8,068 nt of DNA from Candidatus Micrarchaeum sp. Lineage in GTDB: Archaea > SpSt-1190 > DYHY01. The stretch is from contig DYHY01000006.1 of the NCBI GenBank assembly GCA_020723935.1, forward strand, positions 10,022-18,089, written 5' to 3'. Positions 101 to 8,068 of this stretch are shown here, one piece after another. The position numbers were made by a program, and so were the translations under genes. The notes under the pieces are model-generated. The model was not told the DNA's origin and did not search any database. It saw nothing but the letters and a program-made list of their open reading frames with translations. Each line of letters starts with the position of its first letter. Positions within the stretch are counted from its first letter, which is position 1.

Positions 101-869
101 GGAAAAAACGCGGATAATAGGCGTGATCAGCGGCAAGGGTGGCGTCGGGAAGACGACTATCGTCGCGACAGTCGGCTCGATCCTCGCGTCCGAATACAAG
201 AAAGATGTGATAATCCTCGACTGCAATTTCACGACTTCCCATCTTGGTCTACATTTGGGCTTACATGACACCCCGATTACGTCGAATACCGTCCTCCCGG
301 GGAAAGCCGAACTCGACGATGCGATTTACAATCACAAGAGCGGGATGCGCGTCGTACCGGCCGGACTCTCGGTGAACGACTTGAAAGGGATAGATCTTGT
401 CGATTTGGAAAAGATCGTAAAAAAGCTCATAAACAAAGCGGACTTTGTTTTCCTCGATGCTGCTGCAGGCCTCGGCAGGGAAGCTATTGTCACTATGCGC
501 GCCTGCGATGAAGCCCTTTTTGTGACTGTTCCTCAGGCGCCTTCGGCAGTGGATGTCATGCGCTGCCACAAACTTGTCAAGCAATACGGCAAGACTCCGT
601 TAGGTGTAGTCCTCAATATGGTTCACAGCAAGGCCCACGAGTTTTCGGCCCTTGAAATAGAGACTCTGACCGATCTCCCCGTTGTCGCCAAGATACCTTT
701 CGACACGAACATCCAGAAGGCCCTGTCAGAACGCAAGGTGTTGAACTATTATCAGCCAAACTCAAGAGCAATGCGCGCCTACCGGAAACTGGCTGCCTGG
801 CTCTGCGGCGTAGAATACCATGAGCGGCCCTTCGTGTCACTCATTGTCGACTGGCTCAGAGAAGTCTGA
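93..869 (+). CDS. MinD/ParA-family deviant Walker P-loop ATPase
   Basis: A 258-aa cytosolic ATPase of the SIMIBI MinD/ParA/Mrp class. The N-terminus carries the deviant Walker A GKGGVGKTT (residues 14-22) with the signature Lys15 plus Lys20. The A' region ILDCNF (41-46, Asp43) and following HLGLHLG correspond to the MinD D-x-D-x-x-x-x-N-L-x-x-x-L-G stretch. Walker B is FVFLDAAAGLG (Asp122). A base-recognition-like VVLNMV lies at 172-177. The last residues (about 246-258: FVSLIVDWLREV) alternate hydrophobic and polar residues and could form a short amphipathic membrane-targeting helix as in MinD, though it is less basic than in bacteria. Such ATPases dimerise on ATP and position or recruit partners at membranes or DNA. 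No MinE- or ParB-like partner is visible. It overlaps the upstream SHOCT-like gene by 8 bases, suggesting that protein as a partner. Family call is firm; specific role unknown. Confidence 0.93.
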   Translation: MAKEKTRIIGVISGKGGVGKTTIVATVGSILASEYKKDVIILDCNFTTSHLGLHLGLHDTPITSNTVLPGKAELDDAIYNHKSGMRVVPAGLSVNDLKGIDLVDLEKIVKKLINKADFVFLDAAAGLGREAIVTMRACDEALFVTVPQAPSAVDVMRCHKLVKQYGKTPLGVVLNMVHSKAHEFSALEIETLTDLPVVAKIPFDTNIQKALSERKVLNYYQPNSRAMRAYRKLAAWLCGVEYHERPFVSLIVDWLREV

Positions 870-3401: not shown

Positions 3402-4937
3402 TTACACCGTCGGCTTGAACTTGTGCTTGGCTAGCTCCGTCTCCCGCCGGTCCGGCGCGAGCGGCTCGAGGCGCACGTCCAGCTCAAGGGTCTTGAAGCC
3501 CGCTTCCGAGCCTTCGGAGAGGAAAGCCTTCATCGGCGGGCTCGCCGGAACTATCTCGGCCCTGCCCTCCGAATAGCCGTCCGTCGCGTACCTCTCAAGT
3601 TTCGCCTGCGTCTTTGAGAGGAGCGCCGCTTCCGGCTCGCCGTACGTGTCGAAGACGAAGGTGATCTTGTCGCAGTCAAGGGCCGCCCCAGGCTCGTACC
3701 TGACGTCGAAGACCCCGCTGAACGCGTCGGGCCTCTGCTGGGAGATGAGGGCGGCGATGTTCTCCGCGACGTATGCCGGGAGGTGCTTCATCGCCTCGCC
3801 CTGCGAGAACTTCACCCTGCCGACGACCTCTATCGCGGGCGATGGGATGCCGCAGGAGCAGTCGTGATCAAGGGTCACGAGGTCCCCGGTCTCGCCGTTC
3901 ACGTCGCACCACGCCTTGAGGTTCGTCGGCGTCACCCACGCAGCCCCGCTCTCGTCGGCCGTCACGCGCTGGTAGGGCGCGACGTGCGAGCGGCCTTCCG
4001 AGCACGGGTAGGTTATGAGGCCGTGATCAACGGTCCCGCGCATGTTCCTCACCTCTATCCCCGGGACGTCCTCCCTGAACCTTCTCCTGGACTCGGAGAG
4101 GTGCCCGCCGCCCAAGACGACGCCCTTTAGCGGGAAATCCCCTTCCGCCCTCAGCCGGTCTATCTCTTCCTTCATCCTGCGGTTCGTCTCATAGGCCCTC
4201 CCGAGCGTCGCCTCGTAATCGACCTTGATCATGCCGTCGGCGCGAACGCGCATCACGGGCTCCGGGACCTCGACGTAGGTGAGCTCGGAAGCGGCCCGCA
4301 CGAGGAAGATGGGCACCGTCCTTGTGTAGCTGGTTATCACGTCCGTCGCGGGGAGCTCGTCCATGAACTTCCCGTAATCCCTCGTGTCTATGTGCCTGAC
4401 CTTCCCCGTGCGCTCGACGAGCTTGAGGACTATCGGCACGCCCTTGCCCATCAAGCTCTCCGACGGGGCGAGGACCATTATGCCGTCCGTCCCCCCGCCG
4501 GTACCCGACGGTGTCCAAGGCCTGCCTGTATCCCTATCCCTGGGCGCCGAACATGTCGGCCAGGTCCCAGGGGATCTCGACCATATTCCCGGTCGTCCCG
4601 CTGGTGTTGAAGTATTTCACGAAGCCAGCGTCGTCCCTGAGAATCTCAGGCATCCTCTGCTGCATGTCCTCGCGCGTTATGCGAAAGCCGGTCGCGTCCA
4701 AGTCCTTGAAAGTCCTTATGTCCGCGGGCGAGGAGACGCCCAGCTCGCGCATCCTCCTCGGGAAGAGGGGGGCGCGTGCGTCCAGTACCGCGCGACGATG
4801 CCGCGCAGGGACGCGTCCTGCGCCGCCTCGAGCTCCTCGGGGCTCCTGTAAGGGAAATCCAGCGGATCCTTCCCCGCGCGGTATATCGCCTTCAAAACCC
4901 CGACTGCAGCCCGGGCAACCTCTCCGACTTTTCCCAT
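3402..4937 (-). pseudogene. PaaK/LuxE-like adenylate-forming ligase, disrupted
   Basis: Adenylate-forming (ANL) enzyme of the phenylacetate-CoA ligase / F390 synthetase / LuxE type, about 510 aa when repaired. These activate a carboxylate as acyl-AMP. Starting at ATG 4937, MGKVGEVARAAVGVLKAIYR leads to WTHAPP. At G6 (4767-4772) one base is missing and the frame moves to LFPRRMRELGV, then the P-loop NTSGTTG (near 4600). An in-frame TAG (4536-4534) follows, then GYRQALDTVGYRRG. At C6 (4491-4496) one base is extra, after which the frame GTDGIMVLAPSES... runs to 3402. Other landmarks are VVLGGGHLSESRRRF, YPCSEGRSH (A5-like) and the PaaK-like DCSCGIPSPAIEVVGR block. Removing one TATCCC copy (4529-4540) abolishes the TAG. 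The gene ends 4 bases from the convergent membrane-protein gene. Substrate is unknown. It is either a recent pseudogene or suffers sequence errors. Confidence 0.75.
4529..4540. repeat. 6-bp tandem duplication creating an in-frame TAG
   Basis: TATCCC occurs twice in tandem on the + strand. Read on the - strand within the ligase, the codons are CAG GGA TAG GGA TAC AGG; with one copy they become CAG GGA TAC AGG, an uninterrupted Q-G-Y-R. The duplication is the simplest source of the premature TAG at 4536-4534. Confidence 0.7.
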
Positions 4938-4963
4938 GGCAGTGCGTGCCGGAGCGCCGCGCG

Positions 4964-4970
4964 CTAAAAA
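4964..4970 (-). promoter_or_regulatory. Probable TATA element of the ligase gene
   Basis: On the minus strand TTTTTAG (4970-4964) is an AT patch in GC-rich DNA. Its centre is about 30 bases before ATG 4937, again fitting a leaderless start. It is a poorer match to the archaeal TATA consensus than the one at 5038. Confidence 0.45.
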
Positions 4971-5004
4971 GCTTGCTTAACACCTTGAAGTGGCGTTCGG
5001 AAAA

Positions 5005-5069: not shown

Positions 5070-5399
5070 ATGCCAGTTTCTGCCTCGCGCAAGGCGGCCT
5101 TCTACAGGCAGCTTGCGCAGGACCTCGCGCAGGGCGTTGCAAAGATAATCGGGAACACCTCCTACACCCTCGCCGCGTCCGTCTCCGGGATATCCGTCGA
5201 CTACAGGACGAAGGCCGTAGCCACGGGCGACTCGTTCGATTCCGGGAATTTCAAGGACCTAATCGCCGTCTATGTCCGGATCATCGGCCCCGTGGCTAGG
5301 ACCCTTGCCGCGCGGGCGGCCGCACCCCTCCTCAAGGAACTCCCTGAGATGAGGAAGGATCTCCCGGCATGGATCTTGGCCTGGGAGAGGGAGGACTGA
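5070..5399 (+). CDS. Uncharacterised 109-aa protein, first gene of the operon
   Basis: A small soluble protein that I do not recognise. Residues 5-27 form a likely amphipathic helix (RKAAFYRQLAQDLAQGVAKI). A Ser/Thr-containing middle (SYTLAASVSGISVDYRTK, 31-48) may be a beta hairpin. It is followed by a hydrophobic helix (FKDLIAVYVRIIGPVARTLA, 61-80) and a basic/acidic C-terminal helix ending in WILAWERED. There is no signal peptide, and no cysteine or catalytic motif is evident. ATG 5070 is chosen because the TATA element lies 28 bases upstream. The gap to the Roadblock gene is 8 bases from its TGA, so it is co-transcribed with the GTPase/Roadblock/KaiC genes. As leader gene of the module it may be a partner or regulator of the GTPase; this is inferred from position only. 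Confidence 0.8.
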   Translation: MPVSASRKAAFYRQLAQDLAQGVAKIIGNTSYTLAASVSGISVDYRTKAVATGDSFDSGNFKDLIAVYVRIIGPVARTLAARAAAPLLKELPEMRKDLPAWILAWERED

Positions 5400-5796: not shown

Positions 5797-6972
5797 ATGG
5801 CGGGCGCCCTCCTTCCTACCGGGATACCGAAGCTTGACGAGCTCCTCGGCGGAGGGATCGCTCCCGGGAACTCCGTCCTCGTGACGGGGGCCTTGGGCGC
5901 CGACATTGAGACGTTCGGCCAGCAGATAGCCGCGAGCGTCGCCGAGAAGGACGGCACGTGCATCTACCTCGTCTGCGACAAGTTCCCGCGCCTCGTGACG
6001 GAGAAGATGAAGGCCCTAGGGTTCGGCGCCCAGGACAGGATCTTCTTCATCGACGGCTATTCCGGCTCAATCGGCGTCTCGCCCGAGGGCGCGTTCTCGC
6101 TCCCCAACATGGGCGACTACCTCTCCGTCGTCTCCACGGCGATATCGTCCGTGAGCCCGTCGCTCCTCATCGTAGACTCGCTCTCCAGCTTCCCGCCCGG
6201 GAACAGGCGCGCCGAGATCGAGAAGTTCATCTCCCTCATAGGCTCGCGCGGGGTCGCGGGCGTCTTCCTCCTCACGCGCTTCGGCGACGAGGACGAGAAG
6301 ATGGTCTTCAAGATATCTGGGAAGTTCGACCGCGTCGTCTACATCAATTCCGTCGAGGAGAACTTCATCGAGCGCAGCTACTACACCACCTCCTCCTCGC
6401 CCGACATGCACGTGCCCTTCAAGGTGTCCTCCTCCGGGATAGTGATACAGGTGCCCAAGATCCTCGTCACCGGGCCCTACCATGCCGGCAAGTCCACGTT
6501 CATCCACAAGCTCTCGACGCGCGCGGTCTCCGTCGATCGGCTCGGGACGACGATAGCCCTCGACCATGGCTACGTGGAGTACGGCGGCCTCTCGGCCGAC
6601 ATCTTCGGCACGCCCGGCCAGGAGAGCTTCAACTTCATCCTCCCGATCCTCGCCCGCGACATCTTCGGCGTGATGCTTGTCGTTGACGCGACGGACCCAT
6701 CGCTCCTCGGCCGCGCGAAGGAGATGCTGGAGGCCGTCTCGGGCATGCGCATACCTTTCGTCGTCGCCGCGAACAAGTCAGATCTTCCCGGCGCGCTGCC
6801 GCCCGAGGAGATAAGGAAGGGCCTCGGGATAGGGGAGGAGATCCCGATGGTGAAAACCGTCTCAACGACCGGCGAGGGCTTAAAAGAGCTGCTTTCCGAC
6901 CTCTTCGACATGATCCTGGGCTTCAGGAAGTGGGCTTCGCAGAAGAGCGGTGGGGCGCGCGCGGCCGAATGA
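5797..6972 (+). CDS. KaiC-like pseudo-ATPase fused to an MglA/COG2229-like small GTPase
   Basis: 391 aa, two domains. Residues 8-215 resemble a KaiC/RadA RecA-fold domain: TGIPKLDELLGGGI at the N-terminus and Walker B LLIVDSLSSF (Asp127). The Walker A region, VTGALGADIETF (29-40), lacks the Gly-Lys-Thr, so ATP hydrolysis is unlikely. Residues 219-375 are a small GTPase: G1 GPYHAGKST (226-234), switch I TT at 251-252, G3 GTPGQE (271-276; Ras Asp57 position is Gly, the catalytic-type Gln275 is kept, as in MglA/COG2229), G4 NKSD (326-329), and G5-like STTGEG (356-361). The tail is short and basic/Gly-rich. GTP binding and switching therefore look intact. GGAGGAGAT at 5779-5787 serves as ribosome binding site. 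It overlaps Roadblock 2 by 4 bases. It probably works with the two Roadblock proteins flanking it; the upstream signal and output are unknown. Confidence 0.92.
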   Translation: MAGALLPTGIPKLDELLGGGIAPGNSVLVTGALGADIETFGQQIAASVAEKDGTCIYLVCDKFPRLVTEKMKALGFGAQDRIFFIDGYSGSIGVSPEGAFSLPNMGDYLSVVSTAISSVSPSLLIVDSLSSFPPGNRRAEIEKFISLIGSRGVAGVFLLTRFGDEDEKMVFKISGKFDRVVYINSVEENFIERSYYTTSSSPDMHVPFKVSSSGIVIQVPKILVTGPYHAGKSTFIHKLSTRAVSVDRLGTTIALDHGYVEYGGLSADIFGTPGQESFNFILPILARDIFGVMLVVDATDPSLLGRAKEMLEAVSGMRIPFVVAANKSDLPGALPPEEIRKGLGIGEEIPMVKTVSTTGEGLKELLSDLFDMILGFRKWASQKSGGARAAE

Positions 6973-7364
6973 GCTCCGCAGCCTCTCCGGGGACCGCCGA
7001 CTTGAGGAAGCAGGAGCTGGAGGCGATCCTCGCGCACCTGGGGGAGTTCGGCGAGATCCAGGGCGCGGCGGTCGTGCGCCGCGACGGCCTCATGATAGTC
7101 TCATCCCTCCCCGCGACGACCGACTCGCGGACGATAGCGGCGATGTCGGCTGCGATCATCGGCACGACCGAGATGAGCACGGAGGAGATAAAGCTCGGGC
7201 GCTTCCCTCAGGTGATAATCGAGGCGGAGAAGGGCAAGTTCATAGCTGTCGGCGCCGGAACGCAGGCGAGCCTCGTCTGCCTGGTGCGCGCGACGGGGAA
7301 CCTGGGCATGGTCCTCCTGGAGATGGGCAGGGCCGCCGAGCAGATATCAGGGAAGCTCGGCTAG
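6969..7364 (+). CDS. Roadblock/LC7 (MglB-like) protein 2
   Basis: 131 aa, a single Roadblock/LC7 domain with the same elements as Roadblock 1: IQGAAVVRRDGLMIVSSLP, DSRTIAAMSAAIIGTTE, FPQVIIEAEKGKFIAVGAG, SLVCLVRATGNLGMVLLEM and a C-terminal helix AAEQISGKLG. The N-terminal 10 residues are Ser/Ala/Gly-rich. ATG 6969 is chosen because its ATGA overlaps the fusion gene's stop, signalling translational coupling; an upstream in-frame ATG at 6930 lies inside the GTPase gene. By hand alignment about 71 of 102 positions match Roadblock 1, including a 25-base identical DNA stretch, so the two are paralogues. They might form a heterodimer as the GTPase-binding surface, which would allow asymmetric GTPase binding (inference). 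Confidence 0.92.
   Translation: MSSAASPGTADLRKQELEAILAHLGEFGEIQGAAVVRRDGLMIVSSLPATTDSRTIAAMSAAIIGTTEMSTEEIKLGRFPQVIIEAEKGKFIAVGAGTQASLVCLVRATGNLGMVLLEMGRAAEQISGKLG
7074..7098 (+). repeat. 25-bp direct repeat, copy 2 (Roadblock paralogues)
   Basis: Same 25 bases as 5495-5519, 1579 bases away. A further shared 18-base stretch encodes the E-A-E-K-G-K block in each Roadblock gene. Confidence 0.85.
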
Positions 7365-7390: not shown

Positions 7391-8068
7391 ATGATGAAAA
7401 CCGGGATAGAGAGGCTCGACGAACTCGTCGGAGGCGGCTTTGCGGAGCGGAGCAACTTCCTCGTCATCGGCCCGCCCGGGAGCGGGAAGGAGGCGCTCCT
7501 GCTCCACTTCCTCGCCGCCGGGAAGGCCCAGAGCAACCCAGCTGTCTTCGTGACGACGGACAACGCGCCCCTGGAGATAGAGAAGCGCGCCATATCCCTC
7601 GGCCTGGACTTCGCAGGCTTCGCGCAGGCACGTCTCCTGAAATTCGTCGACTGCTACTCTTGGGCGCTGCAGGCCCACCAGGACATCGTGAAGAGGGACG
7701 ACATCTTCGTCCCCGGGCCCTCGTCCTTGAACGAGCTATCGATCGCCATCTCCAAGGCGCTCCTGGAGATAGGCCGCCCGCCGATGCCCTCGCGCGTCTC
7801 GTTCCAATCTCTCTCGACGCTCCTCCTCTACAACAACCCCGAGGTCGTCTTCCGCTTCATCCAGGTGATGGGCGCGCGCCTCAAGCAGACGGGCTCAACG
7901 ACCCTCTTCTCGATAGAGAGCGGCATGCATCCGGAATCCACGATAGCGACCCTCGAGCACCTCCTGGCCGGGACTGTCGAGTTCAAGGTCGATGGCGAGC
8001 GCAGGTTCTTCCGCGTCCCGAGGGTGCCCGGCGGCCAGGCGCTCCTCAAGTGGACCGAGTACGACATA
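7391..8068 (+). CDS. KaiC-like RecA-superfamily ATPase, degenerate Walker B (3' partial)
   Basis: 226 codons are open to the window edge, with no stop. The start is TGIERLDELVGGGF, as in KaiC family proteins. Walker A is GPPGSGKE (27-34): Lys33 is present but the usual Thr/Ser is Glu34. A KaiC-like VFVTTDNAPLEIEKRA strand-helix is at 52-67, and FVDCYSWA at 85-92 matches FIDGYSGS of the fusion's domain. The Walker B region reads RVSFQSLSTLL (135-145), with Gln139 where the family has Asp. SIESGMHPESTIATLEHLL (174-192) and the last residues (FRVPRVPGG...WTEYDI) are typical of the C-terminal half, so the RecA domain is nearly complete; a further domain could follow. ATG 7391 has GAAGGA at 7377-7382 as ribosome binding site; the gap from Roadblock 2 is 26 bases. 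It may bind but not efficiently hydrolyse ATP. Confidence 0.88.
   Translation, partial: MMKTGIERLDELVGGGFAERSNFLVIGPPGSGKEALLLHFLAAGKAQSNPAVFVTTDNAPLEIEKRAISLGLDFAGFAQARLLKFVDCYSWALQAHQDIVKRDDIFVPGPSSLNELSIAISKALLEIGRPPMPSRVSFQSLSTLLLYNNPEVVFRFIQVMGARLKQTGSTTLFSIESGMHPESTIATLEHLLAGTVEFKVDGERRFFRVPRVPGGQALLKWTEYDI

Follow-up and report, generated by a model that had tools for sequence, protein, structure and literature searches.

MglA-type GTPases with their Roadblock partners, and the proteins of the KaiC superfamily, are the closest described counterparts of the locus reported here. MglA proteins of Groups 2-5 are marked by GTPGQ in the G3 motif and by a Thr in G2 that replaces the Arg of Group 1, and an NKxD form of G4 is a feature of Groups 1, 4, and 5 (PMC4316618). 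Group 4 has archaeal members and is nearly confined to methanogenic Euryarchaeota (Wuichet and Sogaard-Andersen, PMC4316618). The 2014 survey that defined these relationships collected longer GTPases too and classified those of at most 240 residues (PMC4316618). The Roadblock proteins coupled to Groups 2-5 are marked by an Asp-Gly pair (PMC4316618), and Roadblocks serve such GTPases as GAP, GEF, or platform (PMC4316618; PMC10933270). KaiC proteins, for their part, have been proposed as archaeal signalling hubs, and the joining of inactivated KaiC domains (iKaiC) to signalling modules is credited by Galperin and colleagues (2018) to Makarova, Galperin, and Koonin (2017); the portion of PMC5847659 on which both statements rest names REC and HalOD1 as partners.

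The window, that is the whole stretch of 8,068 nucleotides of Candidatus Micrarchaeum sp. DNA that was analysed, encodes a protein in which a KaiC/RecA-fold domain without Walker A is confirmed to be joined to a complete Ras/Arf/MglA-type GTPase (Table 1). This fusion resembles the MglA/MglB systems of Groups 2-5, above all Group 4, in its G3 GTPGQ (G271-Q275), its G2 Thr, its G4 NKxD, and an adjoining Roadblock gene. However, MglA proteins are small and single-domain (150-240 residues, at most 240 in the classified members), whereas here the GTPase is joined to a pseudo-KaiC domain in a protein of 391 residues, and Group 4 has no reported conserved neighbours (PMC4316618), whereas the fusion has a conserved KaiC neighbour. 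As described in that same portion of PMC5847659, iKaiC proteins likewise combine a KaiC-superfamily domain devoid of ATPase residues with a signalling module, which in the fusion is a GTPase instead of the two partners named there.

Two further systems share part of the design. Conservons (CvnA-D) also associate a Ras-like GTPase and a Roadblock in operon-encoded signalling (PMC4316618). Nevertheless, the actinobacterial conservons comprise a histidine kinase, CvnC, and a separate small CvnD, without KaiC; no histidine kinase or CvnC gene is present between positions 5070 and 8068 of the window. In the Ragulator-Rag complex and in Asgard Roadblock-GTPase proteins, a Roadblock dimer is a platform for a Ras-like GTPase (PMC10933270), as may hold for the fusion operon, but these systems have no KaiC-fold component and their GTPases belong to another subfamily.

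No description of a small GTPase fused to or encoded beside an archaeal KaiC, or of the three-part operon, was found in the literature, the 2017 mBio survey of KaiC being outside the search. The GTPase fusion may already be listed in that survey, and first discovery is not claimed. What appears new is that an iKaiC protein incorporates an MglA/MglB-like switch, fusions of iKaiC to signalling modules being already known. An earlier note on this DNA knew of no described system with such an architecture; within the literature searched, this stands for the GTPase fusion and has to be given up for iKaiC-signalling fusions in general, as the portion of PMC5847659 cited above attests.

Architecture of the fusion protein

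Table 1. Features of the fusion locus, as nucleotide positions in the window or, where indicated, as residues of the fusion protein.
Feature	Position	Strand	Remarks
ROB1, Roadblock/LC7 protein, 140 aa	5369..5791	+	PF03259, E 2e-13; ends 5 nt before the fusion
Fusion protein	5797-6972	+	single open frame, 391 aa
Pseudo-KaiC domain (residues 1-218)	5797..6450	+	PF06745; Walker A degenerate, GALGADIE, residues 31-38
GTPase domain (residues 219-391)	6451..6972	+	PF00025, PF00071, TIGR00231
G1, GPYHAGKS	residues 226-233	+	motif
Switch I/G2	residues R248, TT 251-252	+	motif
G3, FGTPGQ, within DIFGTPGQ	residues 270-275	+	motif
G4, NKSD	residues 326-329	+	motif
ROB2, Roadblock/LC7 protein, 131 aa from ATG at 6969	6969..7364	+	PF03259, E 2.6e-12, longer frame
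Stand-alone KaiC-like partner, 226 aa within window	7391..8068	+	PF06745, E 1.3e-25; DUF7504, E 2.2e-19

In Pfam searches, KaiC (PF06745) matches residues 7-184 of the fusion (E 1.1e-14, 54.9 bits, cut-off 26.6) and Arf (PF00025) residues 221-372 (E 1.5e-12, 47.7 bits, cut-off 22.3). Ras (PF00071) likewise matches the GTPase half, and TIGR00231 (small_GTP) exceeds its NCBIfam cut-off (43.4 vs. 42.5). Compared with PDB sequences by phmmer, the N half retrieves KaiC chains (9e-14) and the C half Arf-like, Arf1, and MglA chains (5e-12 to 1e-8). The AlphaFold2 model of the monomer, built as a single chain with 56 sequences, has a mean pLDDT of 87.1 and a pTM of 0.77 and ends in a disordered tail (residues 378-391). 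Its N half superposes on the archaeal KaiC-like protein PH0284 of Pyrococcus (2dr3; Z 27.1, 210 residues, 2.0 A) and on KaiC structures (Z 24-26), in a fold search where absence of a family from the list does not exclude that family. The fold of the N half is that of PH0284, CirA, ArlH, and KaiC (Z 24-27), but the fusion differs from these KaiC-like ATPases by lacking Walker A and the catalytic Glu pair and by carrying a C-terminal GTPase.

The loss of the ATP site is general. Instead of the GxxxxGKT (GxxxxGK[TS]) of KaiC, the Walker A site has the degenerate sequence given in Table 1, and in an alignment of 88 fusion copies, from which all conservation counts are taken, the P-loop Lys is absent in 88/88. 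The catalytic Glu pair after strand 2 is also missing; the window copy reads VCD at residues 59-61, and none of the 88 homologues has a conserved Glu at 59-62. Judging from these residues, the KaiC half cannot act as a normal ATPase. The altered loop nevertheless follows a pattern, with Pro33 in 85/88 copies, Gly34 in 86/88, Glu or Asp at the position after the lost Lys (38) in 78/88, and an invariant Phe40. Its loss is thus non-random and a new role of the loop is possible. Such remodelling would suit a pseudo-KaiC half that is a ligand sensor, the acidic P-loop binding a ligand other than ATP and gating the GTPase while the adjacent KaiC acts separately, and V4R-domain or, for some copies only, PAS-sensor genes do lie upstream of the fusion in ANME-2 loci. 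However, no ligand or pocket is identified in this half, and the regular association with another KaiC gene, described below, favours protein contacts, so that we regard a ligand sensor as improbable.

In the GTPase half, GK[ST], the two Thr of switch I, FGTPGQ, and N326 and K327 of NKxD are found in 88/88 homologues, and D329 in 86/88. Arg248, located three residues upstream of the Thr pair and not adjacent to it, is invariant. Over the family alignment, mean identity is 63% in this half vs. 43% in the KaiC half. The pattern of conservation indicates that selection has preserved the active site of the GTPase but not that of the KaiC domain. In view of GTPGQ, the G2 Thr, and the roles of Roadblock proteins, it is very probable that the C half and its Roadblock constitute a switch of the MglA/MglB type, and this part of the explanation proposed below is well supported. 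The earlier note had read the frame as a single protein in which a dead KaiC-type domain precedes, with a boundary near residue 218, an MglA/COG2229-like GTPase having all its nucleotide-binding boxes. The profile matches, the motifs, and a KaiC fold recovered at high confidence agree with this reading in full.

Distribution and origin of the fusion

The fusion is not an accident of one contig. It recurs intact in the only other genome of the window's family (G001), in the same class (G003), and in many other archaea, which rules out a contig-specific or misassembled protein and disposes of the proviso, made when the fusion was first noticed, that it might be confined to this contig and split in close relatives. 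As far as searched, relatives devoid of the fusion lack it altogether instead of having it split. Full-length copies were found in 8 other genomes among the 61 searched, in 3 of the 10 genomes of the window's small phylum, and in the phyla of G011 (18/151), G043 (12/29), and G022 (3/34). When about 85,000 species genomes were scanned with an alignment, relatives turned up at 221 loci, and the 80 best of these were fetched. Nearly all of these best 80 of 221 cover the whole query, and they belong to Methanobacteriaceae, ANME-2, 'Ca. Methanoperedens', Alkanophagales, and Methanocellales. The fusion is also present in individual metagenome bins assigned to Methanomassiliicoccales, Hydrothermarchaeota, and Nanoarchaeota, although these labels may be wrong, and several ANME-2 bins have two to three copies. 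A single-sequence scan of genome contigs with the window copy returned no relatives, probably due to the divergence of this copy, which ranks among the most divergent of the family.

Trees, all midpoint-rooted, point to a common history of the two halves. The fused KaiC domains group together in a single clade (99/96). In a tree made of archaeal sequences only, one branch, supported at 94/90 and recovered in 96% of bootstraps, separates the fusion GTPases from 10 archaeal GTPases that stand alone. Distances within the N halves and within the C halves correlate (r 0.96), as expected for a gene inherited in one piece. Moreover, the N domain is near-constant in size and the linker is conserved across lineages. 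The fusion probably arose once, anciently. The neighbouring KaiC proteins fall into at least two clades of their tree, none of which groups with the fused domain; the idea that the pseudo-KaiC half arose when the neighbouring gene was duplicated in tandem is therefore unsupported.

These results also bear on the idea that the fusion is a remnant or chimera without joint function, in which a decayed KaiC was accidentally joined to a working GTPase. A KaiC half without ATPase residues and with the lower mean identity would fit this idea. On the other hand, a protein that stays intact in many archaeal lineages, with a near-constant N domain, a conserved linker and operon, and a probable single origin, would not, and the remnant reading, already disfavoured, is very improbable.

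A conserved operon with Roadblock and KaiC genes

Neighbours on the same strand and within 1 kb were counted in the 75 loci having more than 1.2 kb of flank on each side. A Roadblock gene adjoins the fusion in 72/75 loci, a separate KaiC gene also in 72/75, and both together are near it in 70/75. Neighbouring genes overlap or are separated by a few bases, as is typical of operons. Such a conserved operon, with a Roadblock and a second KaiC, suggests a molecular switch long kept by archaea. Two main orders occur. In Methanobacteriaceae, the order is Roadblock-fusion-KaiC(-KaiC-TPR protein) (type A), and one ANME-2 paralogue group has the same order with the TPR gene missing. In 'Ca. Methanoperedens' and others, it is KaiC-fusion-Roadblock (type B). 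The window has an order of its own, Roadblock, fusion, Roadblock, KaiC; Roadblocks on both sides of the fusion are absent from nearly all other loci viewed.

The steady presence of the second KaiC gene matters for the oligomeric state of the fusion. KaiC ring assembly normally requires ATP bound between subunits. Pseudo-KaiC halves could still form by themselves a homo-hexameric ring or filament showing six GTPases, for which the second KaiC would not be needed; the earlier note had raised the display of the GTPase on an oligomeric ring or filament. The N half does resemble KaiC as well as archaeal KaiC-like proteins whose crystals contain six chains (2dr3 A-F). Yet the ATP site is gone in all 88 copies and the second KaiC gene would be left unexplained. 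We consider this homo-oligomer unlikely and favour a hetero-complex because of that gene.

The Roadblock genes that the earlier note had seen next to the fusion are found on both of its sides in the window. Both proteins score well above the Robl_LC7 cut-off of 23 bits (50.3 and 46.8), and they are 59% identical to each other. ROB1 may alternatively start at an internal ATG (5408), which avoids an overlap with the upstream ORF, and the start of ROB2 overlaps the stop of the fusion (ATGA). ROB1 and ROB2 are the only PF03259 matches in the window's genome (91% complete), of which the fusion is the sole PF00025 match; they are thus mutual obvious partners. Possibly, ROB1 and ROB2 form a heterodimer, as LAMTOR2/3 associates two unlike Roadblocks. 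Both carry the Asp-Gly pair (RRDG). Across the family, Roadblocks coupled to the fusion have Asp-Gly in 38/71 cases and Glu-Gly in 30/71, a point against the explanation proposed below. The upstream ORF (5070-5399, 109 aa), which overlaps the annotated start of ROB1, has no family match and may belong to the operon; a relationship to the ANME-2 upstream genes was rejected for want of an HMM match.

The frame of the window's partner KaiC continues beyond position 8068, at which point the scaffold passes into a gap (Ns), and two further KaiC genes above the cut-off lie elsewhere in the genome. DUF7504, in addition to KaiC, also matches one type B partner. The P-loop of the window partner, GPPGSGKE, retains the Lys but has Glu in place of Thr/Ser. 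In type A partners the P-loop is normal (GPPKVGKS), whereas type B partners mostly have GK[ED] instead of GK[ST]. Among 95 adjacent KaiC proteins, the residue after GK is E in 31, D in 10, S in 40, and T in 3. A conserved acidic residue at the Mg-binding Ser/Thr position (41/95) is unusual and hints that these proteins use nucleotides in a different way. Partners with GK[ED] are possibly poor ATPases, so that an output via ATP turnover by KaiC may be the wrong idea, and the GTPase may be the only fully intact nucleotide engine in many modules. Besides, since the partners belong to at least two clades, the partner KaiC seems replaceable, which makes a specific docking interface less likely. Comparison of the loci indicates that fusion and Roadblock are the constant core, the KaiC being exchangeable.

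Other genes accompany the operon in some lineages. In eight Methanobacteria loci, it is preceded by two small genes (c20 and c21), whose products have N ends resembling class III signal peptides or pilins, and followed by the TPR protein. KaiC and Roadblock genes are frequent in archaeal type IV pilus loci (PMC4858521). A link with pili was not retained, the pilin-like genes being confined to Methanobacteria, with none in the window's operon. In nine loci of an ANME-2 paralogue group, the Roadblock gene is preceded by genes for two small proteins that contain cysteines and match no Pfam family (c8 and c13), often together with a gene for a V4R-domain protein (c11); these proteins are possibly sensors for the switch. 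An anti-phage defence system was also rejected, as PADLOC gave no meaningful match (best for the fusion, 0.0065 over 23 residues).

Elsewhere in the window, an archaeal MinD-type ATPase (93-869; TIGR01969 above cut-off) lies upstream on the strand of the fusion; after it come genes for a regulator resembling TrmB/MarR and for a coiled-coil-like protein. On the minus strand, 3402-4478 and 4534-4983 are, in different frames, apparent pieces of one adenylate-forming gene, phenylacetate-CoA ligase-like with a TSGTTG motif, possibly frameshifted or broken. The GC content is about 0.51 over positions 1-2000 and climbs to about 0.65 beyond position 2500.

A proposed GTPase switch on a pseudo-KaiC scaffold

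As the KaiC half is no normal ATPase and a second KaiC is encoded alongside, the likeliest role of this half would be to couple the switch to a KaiC assembly. In our preferred explanation, to which we give a probability of roughly 0.55, an MglA/MglB-like switch is carried by a pseudo-KaiC scaffold, regulated by the Roadblock, and docked on the neighbouring KaiC. A switch between GTP and GDP states, of the kind found in MglA Groups 2-5, would be fixed onto a KaiC-fold scaffold having no ATPase of its own. The Roadblock would bind the GTPase domain as GAP, GEF, or platform, in the way MglB acts on MglA. The pseudo-KaiC half would be an assembly or recognition module joining the KaiC of the adjacent gene by KaiC-type contacts, and the nucleotide state of the GTPase would pass to this partner and then to a downstream target. 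The analysis establishes the domain composition, the missing Walker A, the intact boxes of the GTPase, the conserved operon, and a probable single origin; GTP hydrolysis, Roadblock regulation, docking on the partner, and output are what we infer. Motility or pili as the output are only hinted at.

A more specific version, which we put forward tentatively and hold to be doubtful, is a GTPase-gated mixed ring made of the fusion and the neighbouring KaiC, where Roadblock-controlled GTP hydrolysis would set the state of the KaiC hub. If true, a signalling machine combining a Ras-type switch and a KaiC ring would be widespread in methanogens and methane oxidisers, and a KaiC signalling hub of archaea would be governed by hydrolysis of GTP, not of ATP.

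Archaea encode many Roadblock and KaiC proteins, whose GTPases and connections are for the most part uncharacterised. A conserved operon that unites both systems in one polypeptide makes a possible switching of KaiC hubs directly testable in methanogens and anaerobic methanotrophs. Where a genome has a single GTPase of this kind and two Roadblocks, as here, the complete set of components is small enough for reconstitution. The MglA/MglB type of switch gains a permanently tethered form and, finally, the fusion bears on early Roadblock-GTPase modules related to eukaryotic ones.
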